Source: Vicia villosa
Taxonomy: Eukaryota; Streptophyta; Magnoliopsida; Fabales; Fabaceae
Direction of reading: 5' to 3'
Assembly (NCBI RefSeq): GCF_029867415.1
Contig: NC_081182.1
Location: forward strand, 47,517,317 to 47,581,316
DNA length: 64,000 nt
Made by a program: the position numbers and the translations under genes
In this document: one piece after another, positions 6,628 to 64,000 of the stretch
Layout: the number at the start of each line of letters is the position of its first letter
How positions within the stretch are numbered: the first letter of the stretch is position 1
The notes under the pieces: generated by a model
Database searches by the model: none
The model's input: only the letters and a program-made list of their open reading frames with translations
Told to the model about the DNA's origin: nothing

Positions 6628-7408
6628 ACAATATTGAATATTAACGGAAACCTGAAGTTACTGATTAAAATGTTTTTTATTAACAAGAACATGAAGTTAC
6701 TTATCACAATATATATATTGAATATTAACGGGAACATGAAGTTACTTATCATAATATTGAATATTAACGGGAACATGAAGTTACCGATCACAATATTGAA
6801 TATTAACGGGAACCTGAAGTTACTGATTAAAATATTTTTTATTAACAGGGACATGAAGTTACTGATCACAATATTGAATATTAACGGAAACTTGAAGTTA
6901 CTGATTAAAATATTGAATATTAACGGGAACATGAAGTTACTGATCACAGTATTGAATATTAACGGGAACATAAAGTTGCTGATTAAAATATTGAATATTA
7001 AGGGAACATGAAGTTACTGATCAAAATAGTGAATATTAACGTGAACATGAAGTTACTGATGAGAATATTAAATATTAACGGGAACCGGAAGTTACTGATT
7101 CAAATATTGAATATTAACGGGAACATGAAGTTATTGATCACAATATTAAATATTAACGGGAACAGGAAGTTACTGATCACAATATTGAATATTAACGTGA
7201 ACTTGAAGTTACTGACTAAAATATTTAATATTAATATGAACACGAAGTTATTGATCAAAATATTGAATATTAACGGAAACATGAAGTTACTGATCAAAAT
7301 ATTTTGAAATTAACGGGAACAAAGTTACTGAGCAAAATATTAAATATTAATGGGAGCATGAAGTTACTGATCAAAATATTGATTATTAACGGGAACGTGA
7401 AGTTACAA
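6628..7408. repeat. 39-bp minisatellite, about 20 copies
   Basis: The unit contains GAATATTAACGGGAACATG followed by AAGTTACTGATCA. Most copies are exactly 39 bp, which is 13 codons, so frames stay open on both strands (for example 6634-7011 plus and 6588-6971 minus). The ORFs encode a repeated hydrophobic/Asn-rich peptide with a core such as LNINGNMKLL. There is no conserved start context, and it lies inside a Helitron, so it is read as non-coding. Confidence 0.9.
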
Positions 7409-38238: not shown

Positions 38239-38422
38239 GAGGCGCCCGCCTCCAAGGCCACGAAGGCCCACGTCTCCACCATCTAAAAGGTGAGACGCCC
38301 GCCTCTAAGGGGACTTGGGTCCCAGGTCTCCACTCGGCAATGGGAGACGCACGTCTCCAATACATTAGGCTGGCCCACTACCTTTTATTCAATCCACTTG
38401 ACACGTTTGACGCCCGTCTCCA
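38239..38422. repeat. Cluster of short compensating palindromes in the solo LTR
   Basis: GGAGGCG-CC-CGCCTCC (38239-38254), GAGACG-CC-CGCCTC (near 38292), GGAGACG-CA-CGTCTCC (near 38343) and GACG-CC-CGTCTCC (near 38410). Arms keep pairing while the third base pair changes between G:C and A:T. Confidence 0.75.
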
Positions 38423-55668: not shown

Positions 55669-57999
55669 TGTCATACCCCAAAATTTGCCCACATTATTTC
55701 TCTTATTCAAGCTTCAAGTCCATAGGCAAAAGCTCATAAACACACTCTCCTATACAAAAGCTCTGAACTAGGGTTTGATTAATTCAATGGAAAATCATTG
55801 AATCAATGGCTCAAGGTGGTTCCATAGGGTCACCAACATCCCAAAGTATCTCCATATAAAGTTTCAAGTCAAACAGAGCAAATTTAGTCCCTCAAATCCT
55901 GATTAGGTCAACAGTCAACTCTCAAGGGCAAAACAGTCATTTCAAGTCAATATACAAGATATTTGGTCAACAACATCCTCATAACCCTAAAATCATCATT
56001 TGATCAAGGGTTGATCATGATGATGCAAGGAAAGATCAGAAAAGTCAAAAGTCAAAAGTTACTATTTTGGGCATGAACTGAAAAAGTCAACCAAACTTTG
56101 AAAATTCACCAAATATTCATACTTCATCAGAAAAATTCCCACCAAAGCTCGTTTTGAAGGGAATTCATTCCTCTATCCAATGGCCCAAGAATCAGAGCTC
56201 ATAGGTCAATGGTTTAAGAGATATGGCTTCATACATTATAGGTCCTTTTCAAAAGTCAACAGAGAGACACTTTTTTTAAAAGGACATAAAATGAGAATGG
56301 AAAATGATTTTGATATGGGACCAAAGACATTGGTTAGGGGACTCTCCAAGGTTTCTAAAATGTCTTAGAACACTTCCATACCTCAAAAATTGAGGGAGAT
56401 AGGCCTTGTCAAAGTTAGATAATTTTGGAGGGAAAAATGTGAAGGAACTTGAAAATGGGCCTAAGCTTTTGAGATCCAAACTTGTTTCTTATGACATTGA
56501 GAGCCCATAAATAAATTTCCACGAATTTACTTGAATTATGTGATTTATTATGAATTTTTATTCATATTAAAAGGAATTTAAAATCAAAATAAATCATATA
56601 ATTGCAAAAATTTGATTTGATTCTATTATTAACCACTTCCAATCACCAATTAATTCATATATTCAGTAAAAATTCGTGCAAAAAGAGATTGATTCAATAG
56701 AGATTGAAATTGAGCCAAAATTGGAAAGGAAGGGAAGAAAATTTCAATCAAATTTCCAAGGTTGCAAATATTAGATTCAAATGGATTCTCTCCATATTTG
56801 TTAACCTATTTCATTCACCTATAAGTAGTAAACAAATCCAGAACCCTAGGGCACGAGGTCTGCAGCCAAAGAAAGTGAAATCGAGCTCAAGAATTCACAA
56901 AAATCTCAAACAACAAATCTCAATTGCGAACCAATTCAAGGCCTCTAATCAATCTCAACTCATTCCTGGATCATCACTGAGTGCATCCCAATCGTTTTCG
57001 GGCATTGAAACATCAAGAACAAGCATTGTGAGTCTCTTTTTGGCCGAATCGTATTTTACTTCGATTACATGATTTCACGCATCCATTCTCAAATATAATT
57101 GCATATTTATGTTTAGCATGATTTGTTTATCGTTTCTGGATGATTGGAGGCATTATCATGTCGTTATGAGTATGATACCATATTAGGGCATAAAGCTCCA
57201 ATTTGGGGTTTTTGCATATAAGCAAAATCAAGTTTAAACAGGTCCATGACTGAATTCGCGAGGCTTTAACGGTTCGATTCATGTATGTGCGAAATATTTT
57301 GGTGTGGTTTTGGTCCTGTTCGCTATTTTTCGCAGGTGTAAAAGATATTACTTTTTATAGCGTGGGCAAGAAAAGCGCTGTAATAGCGCATCTGCAGAAA
57401 CTCATTGAAGAAGACGACGACGTGTCATCGTTTGATTGGCTGGTTCAAATATCTTTTGGCGCGCGCTCCAGTTGGGTTCAGACGAATCCTGTGCGTTAAG
57501 AAACACGCACTAGCGTATGCCCTCACCTTCCAGGCCATCTGATCATCAGCTTAGTGTATCCGACGCTCCTGAAGCTGCGACCATACCATGATCTTCTACG
57601 CCCGCGCCACACTGAATCACAAGCTAAGTATTTTGCAAATTTTTTTATTTTTAATTATACAGCCTTTTGTTTTTATTTTTATATATTTACCCTTTGTTTT
57701 TTTAATAAAAGTTATTCTTAATATATAAAAACTATATAAAAATTATATAATATTTTTTACATGTTTATTTTATTATTTAATCTATTTATTTATTTTTTTA
57801 ATTAATAAATTCATATATACTTGTTGCCTTTTTATATTTATTTAAATGACTTTATTTATTTATTTTAATTTACCTTTAAATCTTTAGAAAATCATAATTG
57901 TTTTATTTAAACTCCGAAAAAATTCCAAAAAATATTTTCGTATTCGTTTTAATTTTCTGAGACCAATAATTAATTAAATCATCTATTTTCTCTTATTTA

Positions 58000-58440
58000 A
58001 TTTCGTACCCTAATCAGGGTTCACGGAGATCATGCCCTACACTGAATGTTTTCTTTTCTGTGCTTTTTTCAGGGTTAGCAACATGATTTCTCCCGATCAC
58101 GCGTCTTCAGAAAACCCGAAGTTAAGTAATTTTATTTAGTTTAATTTAAATTATATTTGATTTATCTTTTAAATTAGGGTTTGTGTCGCTTTCATTTTTT
58201 TTCTGCTTTGTCTCTTTTCAGGGTTAACCTTAAAGGCGTCCTATCAACCATATCAGATCAAATCCGAGCTAAGTACCCTTACCTATTTAATTATTTTTTA
58301 TATATCTTTATTTATTCTTTATTTTAGGGTCAATCACGTTCGCCTTTGAATTAGTCATACACTCACCCTATTTTGTTTGCCTTTTCCAGGGTTTGTCAAA
58401 TTGCCAAAGCCACGAGTTTGGTCACCCTAAACCCTAACCT
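58000..58440 (+). repeat. Degenerate tandem segments in the Ogre LTR
   Basis: Three to four imperfect units of about 100-140 bp, each with a RCTAAGTA...TTTAATT part and a TTTTYAGGGTT part (near 57623/58070, 58121/58220, 58269/58325, 58388). They look like repeated donor/acceptor-like pairs. Confidence 0.55.
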
Positions 58441-58667
58441 TTTATTTTTCTGTTTAATTATTACTTGTGTCAAACCCTATTAAGGGATCCGCTGGTTACA
58501 ATTTCCCTCCCCCATATTACTGTTTCTTGCCTTATATTATCTGCGTGGTTAGTAAAATAGGGAGTGGCAACCATGAATTGAATTTAGAATCGCTAATTTA
58601 CAAGATAATATAATTGAATATAATCACGTGATTGGTGCACACACGCACGCTTTTGGGTAACCTCTCT

Positions 58668-58709
58668 GTTGCCTTGTTGCCTGTTGCCTTGTTGCCTGTT
58701 GCCTTGTGT
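58668..58709 (+). repeat. GTTGCCT minisatellite in the Ogre LTR
   Basis: Alternating TGTTGCC and TTGTTGCC, about five to six units. Confidence 0.85.
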
Positions 58710-59226
58710 TTTTTTTGCAGAATAAGCCAAGTCCCTCGAATACGAGGATACCTCAGCCATGTTGCCTCGATAAAAAGGTCACGACCCTAAATGATGCTGC
58801 CTTCGATACACAAATGACCTCGACCCTCGGAAGTTGCCTACGGAAAAAGGCTGAGGTATCTTCTGGTTGCCTAACGAAAATGGCTTATTCTGATTCTTGC
58901 CTTAGACTACCTGCCCTTCTATGGCATGGGACAGTCTCATGGCAAAGGATGCTTCGATGACCCTTCAACCTCCAAACGAAAGGCTTCCTGCCCTCTTATG
59001 GCAAGGATAGACCCTTTCATTCTGAAAGGCTAAAAAGAGACCTATCATCTGAGTTTAAGGTAATTGCCCCTAATTGCCTTGCAATGCTCAAACTTTCATT
59101 ATATTCTTTCTCATAATTTTTCAAAAGGGCTACGCTCATTTACGAGCTAAAGTCCCTATCTCTTTCATCTACATTTTCTAAACAAACGAGCAAGCAAAGC
59201 AATTAAGAGCCCATGGAAAACCATGG

Positions 59227-59259
59227 ATGCAAAGGGTGCCTTACACCTTCCCTTTGCAT
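59227..59259 (+). other. Conserved hairpin near the Ogre LTR 3' end
   Basis: Perfect 10-bp arms ATGCAAAGGG and CCCTTTGCAT with a 13-nt loop TGCCTTACACCTT. The older LTR copy at 53643-53675 has arms ATGTGAGGGG and CCCCTTGCAT, still paired with two wobbles, and a loop of the same length with nearly the same sequence. The copy at about 52842-52872 is more degraded. Confidence 0.8.
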
Positions 59260-59412
59260 AAATTACCCCCCGAACTTAGATTTCTTTAAAAAGGTTTTTT
59301 TCTGTTTCTTTTTGCCTTTCCGAATTTGTTTGGATAAAATAAAAGTCGGTGGCGACTCTTGCTTACCGCGACATTTCGATTAATAAAAAGTCAGTTCACC
59401 GTATTACAGAAC

Positions 59413-59430
59413 TGGCGACTCTGCTGGGGA
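59413..59430 (+). promoter_or_regulatory. Primer-binding site of the young Ogre-type element
   Basis: TGGCGACTCTGCTGGGGA, the tRNA-Arg site characteristic of Ogre/Tat elements, four bases after the LTR end. A partial copy, GTGGCGACTCT, lies about 65 bp upstream inside the LTR (near 59349). Confidence 0.85.
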
Positions 59431-60535: not shown

Positions 60536-61745
60536 TTGCATAACAGGTTTCCTATGATGGGTTTCTCATCCTTCCTCGCTGTTTATTTCAGCATCATGAA
60601 TCTCGAACAATCAGTTAAGGATCTTCAAGCTCAAAACACCGAGTTCCAAGCCTTGATTCTGAATTTGTCCAAAGGGCAAGAAGAGCTGAAAGCCATGTTG
60701 ACTAGAAAGAAGAAGAAAAAGGGTAAGAAGACTCGAGTAAAAAAGCTTAGACCAATCTTGCAACTCAGGGATGCTGAAACCTCTGAAGACAGTGATGAGG
60801 ATGAGCAAGATGATAATGCTAGTATCAAAACCGATGCAAAAAGTAACCACGATTCTGCCAAACTCTCTGAAGAAGAAGAGGACTATTACCATGAGGGCGA
60901 ACATCCCGATGACAAATACCAGATGTTAGAAGAGCGTCTGAGAAGTGTGGAAATTCAGAAGGTACCTGGGCTGGATTTTGAAGAGCTTGGACTTGTGCCT
61001 GGGGTCGTTATTCCTCCAAAATCAAAACTCCCGCCTTTGCTAAGTATGATGGAGTCTCTTGTCCTAAACTACACTTGAGGTCTTATGTAAGGAAGATTCA
61101 GCCTCACACTACTGATAAGAGGCTCTGGATCCATTTCTTTCAGGAAAGCTTATCTGGAACTCAACTCGAATGGTATTATCAACTGGAAAGTACCAACATC
61201 CATACCTGGGAAGATTTAGTTGTTGCTTTCTATAAGCAATACCAATATAATTCCGATCTCGCACCAACTCGCATGCAACTACAAAGCATGTCCATGGGAC
61301 CTAAAGAAAGTTTCAAGGAGTATGCTCAAAAGTGGAGAGATCTAGCTGGAAGAGTCAAACCCTCCTTAGCTGACAGAGAATTGGTCGATATATTTATGAG
61401 TACACTGACTGGTCCTTTCTATAGTCATTTATTGGGGAGTTCATCATCTGGATTCACTGAACTCATACTGATTGGGGAACGTGTCGAGAGTGGTATTCGA
61501 AGTGGTAAGATTCAAATGGCTACATCCTTAGGTACTACAAAGAAGCATTCTAATGGGAGGTCAGATTCCAATGTTGTGTATGGGCAGAAAAGTATAAGCC
61601 ATGATCAACCCTCTACTTTTCAAAGTTTCTCATATCAAAGTTTCTCATTTATTTTGAGATACTCATTACATAAACACATGCATCATAACATAAGAAAACT
61701 AACCTCTACTTTTCAGGATACCACTATCTCCATTTACAAGAGTTA
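60536..61745 (+). pseudogene. Ogre-type gag, split by a frameshift
   Basis: First ORF 60536-61078 (180 codons): coiled-coil start MNLEQSVKDLQAQNTEFQAL at 60599, a Lys-rich patch (KKKKKGKKTRVKK) and an acidic Ser/Glu/Asp region. It stops at TGA overlapping the next ORF, 61075-61746, which holds the capsid-like retrotrans_gag domain: DKRLWIHFFQESLSGTQLEW, WEDLVVAFYKQYQYN, ESFKEYAQKWRDLAGRVKP. The two ORFs overlap by 4 bases (ATGA) but lie in different frames. No zinc knuckle, protease or RT follows. It could supply only a capsid-type protein, if expressed at all. Confidence 0.82.
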
Positions 61746-62215
61746 AGTCGACACCTCTGACGGTTCCTTAACAACCTATTTTCAAGTATTAAGTCGATAC
61801 CTTTGACGGTTCCTTAATATATCAAGAGTTAAGTCGACACCTTTGACGGTTCCTTAACGACACACTTCAGATATAAGTCGACACCTTTGACGGTTCCTTA
61901 TACAATCTATCTACATATCTGAGTCGATACCTTTGACGGTGCCTCAATGATATGCTTCAGATATAAGTCGACACCTTTGACGGTTCCTTATACAATCTAT
62001 CTACATATCTGAGTCGATACCTTTGACGGTGCCTCAATGATATGCTTCAAAGTTAAGTCGACACCTTTGACGGTTCCTTAACAACCCACATCAAGAGTTA
62101 AGTCGACACCTTGGACGGTTCCTTAACGACGTATTTCAAATTTAAGTCGATACCTTTGACGGTTCCTTAAATAACCCAACACAGACTTGAGTCGACACCT
62201 TTGACGGTTCCTCAA
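61742..62215 (+). repeat. Array of 11 hairpin-forming tandem repeats
   Basis: Eleven units of about 45 bp, each with a core of about 31 nt: arm, TCGAYACCTTTGACGGTTC (or GGTGC), complementary arm. Core positions: 61742-61772, 61788-61818, 61828-61858, 61872-61902, 61920-61946, 61962-61992, 62010-62036, 62052-62082, 62097-62127, 62140-62172, 62187-62215. Arms read GTTAAG/CTTAAC, ATTAAG/CTTAAT, TATAAG/CTTATA, TGAG/CTCA, TTTAAG/CTTAAA and TTGAG/CTCAA. Units 4-5 and 6-7 form an exact duplication of about 90 bp. The array lies between gag and the purine tract, in the 3' UTR position. Confidence 0.93.
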
Positions 62216-62430
62216 CATTCAAACAAAAAAGAGAAGACGGCAAAAGCAGAAATTTCGCAACAATCCATACTCCAACAACTATCAGATGGCATCTACAAGC
62301 CCATCTCCGACAAAAAGTCCCTACTGCAAATAGGGCAAATTTCTTGGTATTCTAGTGTTCAATCATCTTCCACCTTCAGATACCGACTGGCACACAAACC
62401 ACTCTACATCTTCAGGTTTAAGATAATTGA

Positions 62431-62441
62431 ACAGGGGCAGC
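62431..62441 (+). other. Polypurine tract of the Ogre-type element
   Basis: ACAGGGGCAGC directly precedes the 3' LTR start TGTCATACC. Confidence 0.7.
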
Positions 62442-64000
62442 TGTCATACCCCAAAATTTGCCCACATTATTTCTCTTATTCAAGCTTCAAGTCCATAGGC
62501 AAAAGCTCATAAACACACTCTCCTATACAAAAGCTCTGAACTAGGGTTTGATTAATTCAATGGAAAATCATTGAATCAATGGCTCAAGGTGGTTCCATAG
62601 GGTCACCAACATCCCAAAGTATCTCCATATAAAGTTTCAAGTCAAACAGAGCAAATTTAGTCCCTCAAATCCTGATTAGGTCAACAGTCGACTCTCAAGG
62701 GCAAAACAGTCATTTCAAGTCAATATACAAGATATTTGGTCAACAACATCCTCATAACCCTAAAATCATAATTTGATCAAGGGTTGATCATGATGATGCA
62801 AGGAAAGATCAGAAAAGTCAAAAGTCAAAAGTTACTATTTTGGGCATGAACTGAAAAAGTCAACCAAACTTTGAAAATTCACCAAATATTCATACTTCAT
62901 CAGAAAAATTCCCACCAAAGCTCGTTTTGAAGGGAATTCATTCCTCTATCCAATGGCCCAAGAATTAGAGCTCATAGGTCAATGGTTTAAGAGATATGGC
63001 TTCATACATTATAGGTCCTTTTCAAAAGTCAACAGAGAGACACTTTTTTTAAAAGGACATAAAATGAGAATGGAAAATGATTTTGATATGGGACCAAAGA
63101 CATTGGTTAGGGGACTCTCCAAGGTTTCTAAAATGTCTTAGAACACTTCCATACCTCAAAAATTGAGGGAGATAGGCCTTGTCAAAGTTAGATAATTTTG
63201 GAGAGAAAAATGTGAAGGAACTTGAAAATGGGCCTAAGCTTTTGAGATCCAAACTTGTTTCTTATGACATTGAGAGCCCATAAATAAATTTCCACGAATT
63301 TACTTGAATTATGTGATTTATTATGAATTTTTATTCATATTAAAAGGAATTTAAAATCAAAATAAATCATATAACTGCAAAAATTTGATTTGATTCTATT
63401 ATTAACCACTTCCAATCACCAATTAATTCATATATTCAGTAAAAATTCGTGCAAAAAGAGATTGATTCAATAGAGATTGAAATTGAGCCAAAATTGGAAA
63501 GGAAGGGAAGAAAATTTCAATCAAATTTCCAAGGTTGCAAATATTAGATTCAAATGGATTCTCTCCATATTTGTTAACCTATTTCATTCACCTATAAGTA
63601 GTAAACAAATCCAGAACCCTAGGGCACGAGGTCTGCAGCCAAAGAAAGTGAAATCGAGCTCAAGAATTCACAAAAATCTCAAACAACAAATCTCAATTGC
63701 GAACCAATTCAAGGCCTCTAATCAATCTCAACTCATTCCTGGATCATCACTGAGTGCATCCCAATCGTTTTCGGGCATTGAAACATCAAGAACAAGCACT
63801 GTGAGTCTCTTTTTGGCCGAATCGTATTTTACTTCGATTACATGATTTCACGCATCCATTCTCAAATATAATTGCATATTTATGTTTAGCATGATTTGTT
63901 TATCGTTTCTGGATGATTGGAGGCATTATCATGTCGTTATGAGTATGATACCATATTAGGGCATAAAGCTCCAATTTGGGGTTTTTGCATATAAGCAAAA
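62442..64000 (+). repeat. 3' LTR of the young Ogre-type element, cut by window end
   Basis: Nearly identical to 55669-57227. Differences seen: A/G at 55918, C/A at 55998, C/T at 56193, G/A near 56433, T/C near 56606 and T/C near 57027 (positions in the 5' LTR, approximate to a base or two). The remaining about 2.2 kb is expected outside the window. Confidence 0.93.

Follow-up and report, generated by a model that had tools for sequence, protein, structure and literature searches.

Tandem hairpins with covarying arms in the 3' untranslated region of a long-terminal-repeat retrotransposon of Vicia villosa

Introduction

Do the tandem repeats that lie upstream of the 3' long terminal repeat (LTR) of certain plant retrotransposons have a conserved structure, and what might that structure do for the element? 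This question is raised by a 64,000-nucleotide stretch of the Vicia villosa genome (C3:47517317-47581316 of a 2.03 Gb assembly of 1888 contigs; hereafter, the window), in which an LTR retrotransposon starts at position 55669 and continues past the window's end. Between its Gag region and its 3' LTR are 11 tandem units, which a preliminary description of the sequence read as hairpins whose arms change in a compensating manner. The 3' untranslated regions (UTRs) of Tat/Ogre retrotransposons are reportedly the site of hypervariable tandem repeats (Macas et al. 2009). Excerpts of the literature, to which all of our citations by PMC number refer, describe Tat/Ogre 3' UTR arrays as common and as feeding satellite DNA (PMC7004042), and, in a 2025 paper, as being of unknown origin and function (PMC11963269). 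Those repeats resemble the ones described here in that they lie between pol and the 3' LTR, form family-specific arrays and are a source of satellites; the difference is that these accounts treat origin and variability, not structure (PMC7004042, PMC11963269), and the terms hairpin, secondary structure and palindrom- occur zero times in the main text of PMC7004042. Our own literature search, the coverage of which was partial, so that absence is unproven, found no earlier description of covarying hairpins in Ogre 3' UTRs; searches with the core and LTR strings gave unrelated matches only. We propose, with a probability of roughly 55%, that the array acts in RNA as a structured, multivalent element, the probable role of which is to offer binding sites through which full-length RNA is exported or packaged.

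Hairpin units in the window

The cores of the 11 units span 61748-62207, with starts 40-46 nt apart. A search for the core that permitted at most three mismatches found 12 matches in the window (the twelfth at 38398), and shuffled sequences gave no more than two. It had been claimed that every unit keeps the core; this wording is slightly too strong, as TCGAYACCTTTGACGG is exact in nine of the 11 and carries one mismatch in each of the other two, the loops of which read TCTGAC (unit 1) and TTGGAC (unit 9). Folded singly, a unit forms an outer stem of 5-8 bp, a 2-nt bulge (TC), the pairs GA/TC, a 1-nt bulge (Y), and then the previously noticed ACC/GGT helix, which closes the 6-nt loop TTTGAC. 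Units 5 and 7 have 4 bp beside the core, followed across a 2-nt bulge by a 5-bp ATATC/GATAT helix; they also fold slightly differently above the bulge.

All of the units are on the forward strand. The arms GTTAAG/CTTAAC occur in units 1 (61742..61772), 3 (61828..61858), 8 (62052..62082) and 9 (62097..62127). Unit 2 (61788..61818) has ATTAAG/CTTAAT and extends to 8 bp, unit 4 (61872..61902) has TATAAG/CTTATA, unit 10 (62141..62171) has TTTAAG/CTTAAA, unit 11 (62186..62216) has TTGAG/CTCAA, and unit 5 (61915..61953) is written ATATC-TGAG/CTCA-(AT)-GATAT. Unit 6 (61962..61992) is a copy of unit 4, and unit 7 (62005..62043) of unit 5, as had been recognized; nevertheless the independent evidence in the window amounts to six arm types, instead of the approximately nine independent units that had been estimated.

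The arms are indeed complementary, the short stems of units 5 and 7 notwithstanding: Watson-Crick pairs occupy 61 of 66 arm cells (one pair in one unit), as against 18 of 66 in the flanks just outside. Among the nine distinct units, 96.0% of cells pair, compared with 23-54% when partners are slid by 1-3 columns. Six cells are changed on both sides, versus 1.5 after shuffling (a value reached by one of 500 shuffles), and three of the 11 pairs vary on both sides, versus 1.2 (13/500 shuffles reach three). Reduced to its six distinct arm types, the array has 33 paired cells among 36; two of 720 permutations do as well. Covariation in the window is real, and it rests on few independent arm types. 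Rfam covariance models run over 61600-62460 identified no family; two microRNA matches (E 3.9 and 7.3) fell below the gathering score and outside the array.

The same hairpin family across the genome

Exact matches to the core number 4237 + 4227 = 8,464 genome-wide, and zero for a backward control. We sampled this TTTGAC family at 41 loci (L168-L207 and L216, among them the window's own array as L178), with 519 units in all; 30 of the 41 loci were selected by similarity to the window's UTR tail and are therefore close relatives. These units have 30 arm types. In the ten types that occur in at least three arrays, 52 of 60 cells are paired (51 Watson-Crick and one G-U), and a Watson-Crick count of 51 was reached by seven of 20,000 permutations. 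Unpaired cells are more frequent in the twenty rarer types (35/120, versus 8/60 in the widely shared ones), which are probably post-insertion mutants. Hence the preliminary description's proposal that the stem itself is conserved is borne out in other copies; the contrary outcome that it had named, namely, arms that vary without pairing, is not what we found, and a different family of the same genome covaries much more strongly (see below).

Two elements, those at L176 and L177, have a unit of that other family, ACGAAC, approximately 0.1 kb beyond the TTTGAC array; therefore, modules mix. Outside this genome, single cores were found in at least 119 stretches of the prokaryote collection genome_contigs (one core in each of the 80 listed) and in 40 of viral_contigs (one core each), all of which we take as chance 16-mers; a 24-base pattern had zero matches in viral_contigs, and a search with Gag yielded no confirmed viral locus.

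A second hairpin family

A search for ACGAAC units that left both stems free retrieved 6398 + 6351 = 12,749 units genome-wide, and none for the control. We analyzed the 100 listed of these 12,749, which derive from C1 (0.14-18.2 Mb), form 29 clusters separated by more than 4 kb and lie outside loci L208-L214. They contain 33 distinct stems, in which 183 of the 198 cells of six variable pairs are paired; when whole right arms were permuted 20,000 times, the maximum was 169 paired cells, and no permutation reached 183. Thirteen types recur in two or more clusters, and in these 75 of 78 cells are paired. Across the 33 distinct rows, pairing amounts to 94.3%, versus 24-54% with slid partners, and 41 cells are changed on both sides, as compared to 14.7 after shuffling (0/500) and at most six after sliding. 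The position of the bulge was shifted by one base relative to our earlier test of this family, after the list had been inspected; RNAalifold, applied to the same trimmed 23-nt alignment, returned the same structure and bulge, with five of eight pairs changed on both sides.

Arrays in other elements

A junction pattern located nine other 3' ends (L208-L216), to which 3.1 kb more upstream sequence was added before repeats were sought with Tandem Repeats Finder (score 90). Eight of the nine contain tandem arrays: L216 belongs to the window family, and seven have repeats of other sequence. By eye, many units in these elements are also hairpins, and in several related elements at least two distinct arrays follow one another. 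In one of the nine elements, L213, reverse transcriptase and RNase H sequence was recognized (Pfam) ahead of the array.

Seven repeat families, first picked by eye on these same loci, were tested for pairing with anchors placed outside the stems and 500 shuffles; for three of the families, only the loci or the stretch in which they had been noticed were used. Pairing exceeded the shuffle maximum in GAACYA-42 (17 distinct units; 86.0% paired, maximum 84.6%, 0/500; 12 double-changed cells) and in ACGAAC-48 (13 distinct units; 95.2%, maximum 91.3%, 0/500); in TAAYGYAY (20 distinct units; 81.2%) it was matched by seven of 500 shuffles. A de novo scan of 14 arrays, which presupposed no hairpin, permitted one bulge and is not specific below approximately z 3, gave these same hairpins the highest rank in L214 (z 13.7), L210 (42-nt array; z 3.9), L212 (z 2.5) and L208 (z 1.5). 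The GAACYA loop recurs in a 42-nt repeat (L210, L212) and, with other stems, in a different 88-nt repeat (L211). Folding energy was also tried as evidence and rejected: z values for the unit consensuses are modest (best -3.26, in L211).

Some of these arrays have long open frames, which raises the matter of whether they are coding repeats, in which case pairing would follow from codon constraint. The 42-nt array of L210 (-1427..-750) is open for 215 codons in one frame and the 45-nt array of L216 (-824..-245) for 223, while in L214 an open frame of 129 codons covers the 48-nt array in part. Yet in the window, with its spacing of 40-46 nt, frames of at least 30 codons span at most about two units, and the periods 41, 43, 44, 47, 52, 65, 70 and 88 are not multiples of three. 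On these grounds we rejected coding repeats as a general account, and consider this explanation highly improbable.

RNA or DNA

Mispairs can discriminate between RNA and DNA. Every G-U of the sense RNA reads as mismatched A-C in the opposite strand, so that a DNA dyad should show G-U and A-C equally. Among ACGAAC types we counted 30 G-U versus nine A-C (binomial p 0.001 if types are independent), and 13 versus two in the types seen in at least two clusters (p 0.007). The seven families together gave 62 G-U versus 25 A-C, and another extraction of four families gave 65 versus 17. When the de novo scan was allowed A-C instead of G-U, scores were clearly lower in the 48-nt array of L214, the 43-nt array of L212 and L208. 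Loop entropy per column is 0.11 in L214 (ACGAAC) and 0.12 in L208, below that of stems (0.37-0.79) and spacers. The mispair counts thus favor RNA for the ACGAAC family, and for the window only by analogy; the choice that had been left between an RNA signal and a DNA fold is less settled than conservation of the stem, as the G-U excess of ACGAAC has no counterpart in the window family.

Several results weigh against an RNA structure maintained by selection. The window family as a whole (30 types) has fewer G-U than A-C mispairs (5 versus 13), in part because the outer arm of the TCTGAG types pairs in another register, and replacing G-U by A-C left the de novo score equal or higher in nine of 14 arrays. 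The loops of L210 and L212 (entropy 0.47 and 0.62) are no more conserved than their stems and are less so than the spacer (0.20 and 0.38). In the ACGAAC family, the two measures least inflated by relatedness show no excess, namely, pairs with change on both sides (5 versus 4.1 shuffled; 152/500) and further pair types (13 versus 12.6; 271/500); both are near their ceiling because there are only eight pairs, two of them constant, and none of the counts for this family is a probability, since the shuffles ignore the relatedness of units. Further pair types are likewise no higher than shuffled among the window units (4 versus 3.0; 154/500). The window array scores low in the de novo scan (z 0.47), because that scan permits one bulge only, and the folding energy of its Tandem Repeats Finder consensus unit offers no support (z = +0.45). 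The proposed hairpins were not ranked top in the remaining arrays of the scan, in which only L214 and the 42-nt array of L210 stand out, and two further arrays, one of 39 nt elsewhere in the window and one of 28 nt far upstream in L216, likewise reached z 2.7. Of the seven families, AACCTT-65 is weak (seven distinct units; 52/500), CCTCGW-52 (eight; 256/500) and GAACYA-88 (two; 500/500) show no excess, and CTTY-42 (seven) is 74.3% paired against a shuffled mean of 76.7% (500/500). Within the window family, four of the 12 units of L216 keep only four of six outer pairs and three of the 15 in L176 pair poorly; L215 has no array at score 90, only weak short repeats. Finally, the different loops within one element are unlike the needs of a single Gag.

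Two other explanations bear upon these data. One is mutational: hairpin-driven template switching during reverse transcription could rewrite one arm from the other and generate tandem copies, covariation then being a by-product and the array itself functionless. The variable loops of L210 and L212 and the window family's lack of a G-U excess would fit such an origin, whereas arm rewriting should yield Watson-Crick pairs and erase G-T, contrary to the 30 G-U and nine A-C of ACGAAC; neither does it predict the loops of L214 and L208, which are more conserved than stems. We hold it to be fairly unlikely, yet a live rival.

The other is a DNA-level signal, in which short dyads are binding sites or cruciform-prone sequence, like Sirevirus palindromes or satellites. 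Sireviruses have been described as containing repeated palindromic motifs (PMC2829016), and there is literature on dyad symmetry in satellites and centromeres; the mispair counts of the window family (5 versus 13) would also be compatible. Sireviruses resemble our element as plant LTR elements with repeated dyads, and in an inverted repeat at the polypurine tract (PPT), the equivalent of which here is 62333-62350/62446-62463; they differ in being Ty1/copia, with motifs both within the LTR and upstream of ENV that bear, with one exception, a fixed CGG-CCG signature, and no covarying stems figure in the excerpted account (PMC2829016). By eye, the window array is outside the LTR, its arms vary and it has no CGG-CCG dyad. 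Because the arm letters vary, there is no fixed protein site, and the bulges, the 6-8 nt loops and the strand-asymmetric mispairs of other families further argue against a DNA signal, which we regard as improbable.

The host element

The window element is truncated: it keeps Gag, and no pol was seen between Gag and the hairpin array. All of its features are on the forward strand. The LTR start, TGTCATACCCCAAAATTTGCCC, is present at 55669 and at 62442. The 5' LTR (55669..59408; approximately 3.74 kb) has a right edge set by eye at the CA preceding the primer-binding site (PBS), and the 3' LTR (62442..64000) continues beyond the window; across the 1559 bp of the latter inside the window, the two are 99.6% identical (six mismatches), so the insertion is probably recent. 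A PBS-like sequence, TGGCGACTCTGCTGGGGA (59413..59430), is a candidate read by eye that we presume to correspond to tRNA-Arg; a tRNA-Arg primer-binding site is an Ogre trait. The Gag region, open from stop to stop, occupies 60982..61746 and matches PF03732 (Retrotrans_gag; E 2.9e-13 over 61075-61746). Its N-terminal part sits in a different frame (60536-61078), with a frame change near 61020-61075, and a 178-aa Gag query found 603 related proteins. Two Ogre traits were found, namely, a PF03732 Gag between an LTR pair, and tandem arrays between the coding region and the 3' LTR; to judge from these sequence features, an Ogre-like identity (Tat lineage, Ty3/gypsy) is plausible. The array, which had been assigned to a retrotransposon 3' UTR, has Gag upstream and, downstream, a PPT-like tract, AACAGGGGCAGC (62430..62441), directly before the LTR start.

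Immediately 5' of the array is a 3' splice-site-like sequence, ACTAACCTCTACTTTTCAGG (61698..61717); a branch point and splice-site-like motif (ACTAAC...TTTTCAG) adjoins the array upstream in the window family. A similar sequence precedes the array in ten of ten loci L168-L177, and in L216; none was found ahead of the arrays of L208-L215.

The tail that leads up to the PPT contains a hairpin-like element, GATGGC...GCCCATC (62285..62305), noted by eye upon comparison with the last 260 nt of the nine other elements. A GATGG...CCATC form of it is kept in L208, L209, L211, L212, L214, L215 and L216, and is unclear in L210 and L213; the L212 and L215 tails read GGTGG with CCAC, which looks compensatory. 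Further downstream, the left arm of an inverted repeat (62333..62350) is 83% complementary to 62446-62463, such that the UTR tail pairs with the first LTR bases across the PPT. Elsewhere in the window, outside the retrotransposon, is the 39-nt tandem array (approximately 20 copies; 6630-7406), which has no convincing hairpin.

Discussion

The function that we infer for the array, of which pairing, covariation and recurrence in other families are documented above, would proceed as follows. Downstream of the coding region and ahead of the PPT, an Ogre-like transcript would carry a small hairpin in many copies. Selection during propagation would keep the stems paired while their letters drift and, in some families, would keep the loop; related elements would assemble an equivalent region out of different hairpin modules. 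The hairpins may then be repeated binding sites for an RNA-binding partner, supplied by the element (Gag) or by the host, which would pick out full-length RNA to be packaged or exported from the nucleus. Avidity would come from the number of copies, which would also let the element tolerate gain and loss of units.

The CTE is one example of an RNA export element of LTR elements. Others are the RTE of IAP and the MTE of musD, structured RNAs used for export by mammalian LTR elements (PMC12786077). Like the array proposed here, they act on the full-length transcript as structured RNA (PMC12786077); on the other hand, RTE, MTE and CTE are single folded domains in mammals, and here we have many short hairpins, in exchangeable modules, known from sequence. 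Bearing in mind that Ogre transcripts are spliced (PMC12786077, PMC3735527), the full-length RNA must escape splicing, be exported and be packaged. The splice-acceptor-like sequence would put the window array at the start of the last exon, which is a lead only, as no such sequence was found ahead of the arrays of L208-L215.

An RNA element could instead serve reverse transcription itself, through pausing, strand transfer, genome circularization or contacts with the primer tRNA. The loops ACGAAC and GAACCA of L208-L214 contain CGAAC and GAACC, which we take to be complementary to the general tRNA T arm; by eye, the loops TTTGAC, TAACGCAC and CCTCGW have no such complementarity. Ty3, of the Metaviridae, has primer binding site segments in its 3' UTR (PMC4974528), and so offers a likeness in family and in cis-acting 3' UTR RNA; it differs in having two tRNA-complementary segments in place of a hairpin array (PMC4974528). 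We judge a role in reverse transcription to be quite unlikely; with the mutational origin, it is nonetheless one of the live rivals to a binding array.

The binding array that we favor can be extended, in a tentative manner that we deem possible but no stronger, to a general view of this region: the 3' UTR of Ogre-like elements may be a modular address region, in which exchangeable hairpin recognition sites, reshuffled among lineages, decide RNA export or packaging. Were this so, the legume satellites that derive from these regions would be fossils of RNA recognition elements. More immediately, if the units are covarying RNA hairpins, then these arrays become a testable cis-acting element that comes with its own natural compensatory variants, and the satellites that spread from them would have begun as something functional. 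What has chiefly been regarded as a place where satellite DNA arises probably performs a task within the RNA of the element.
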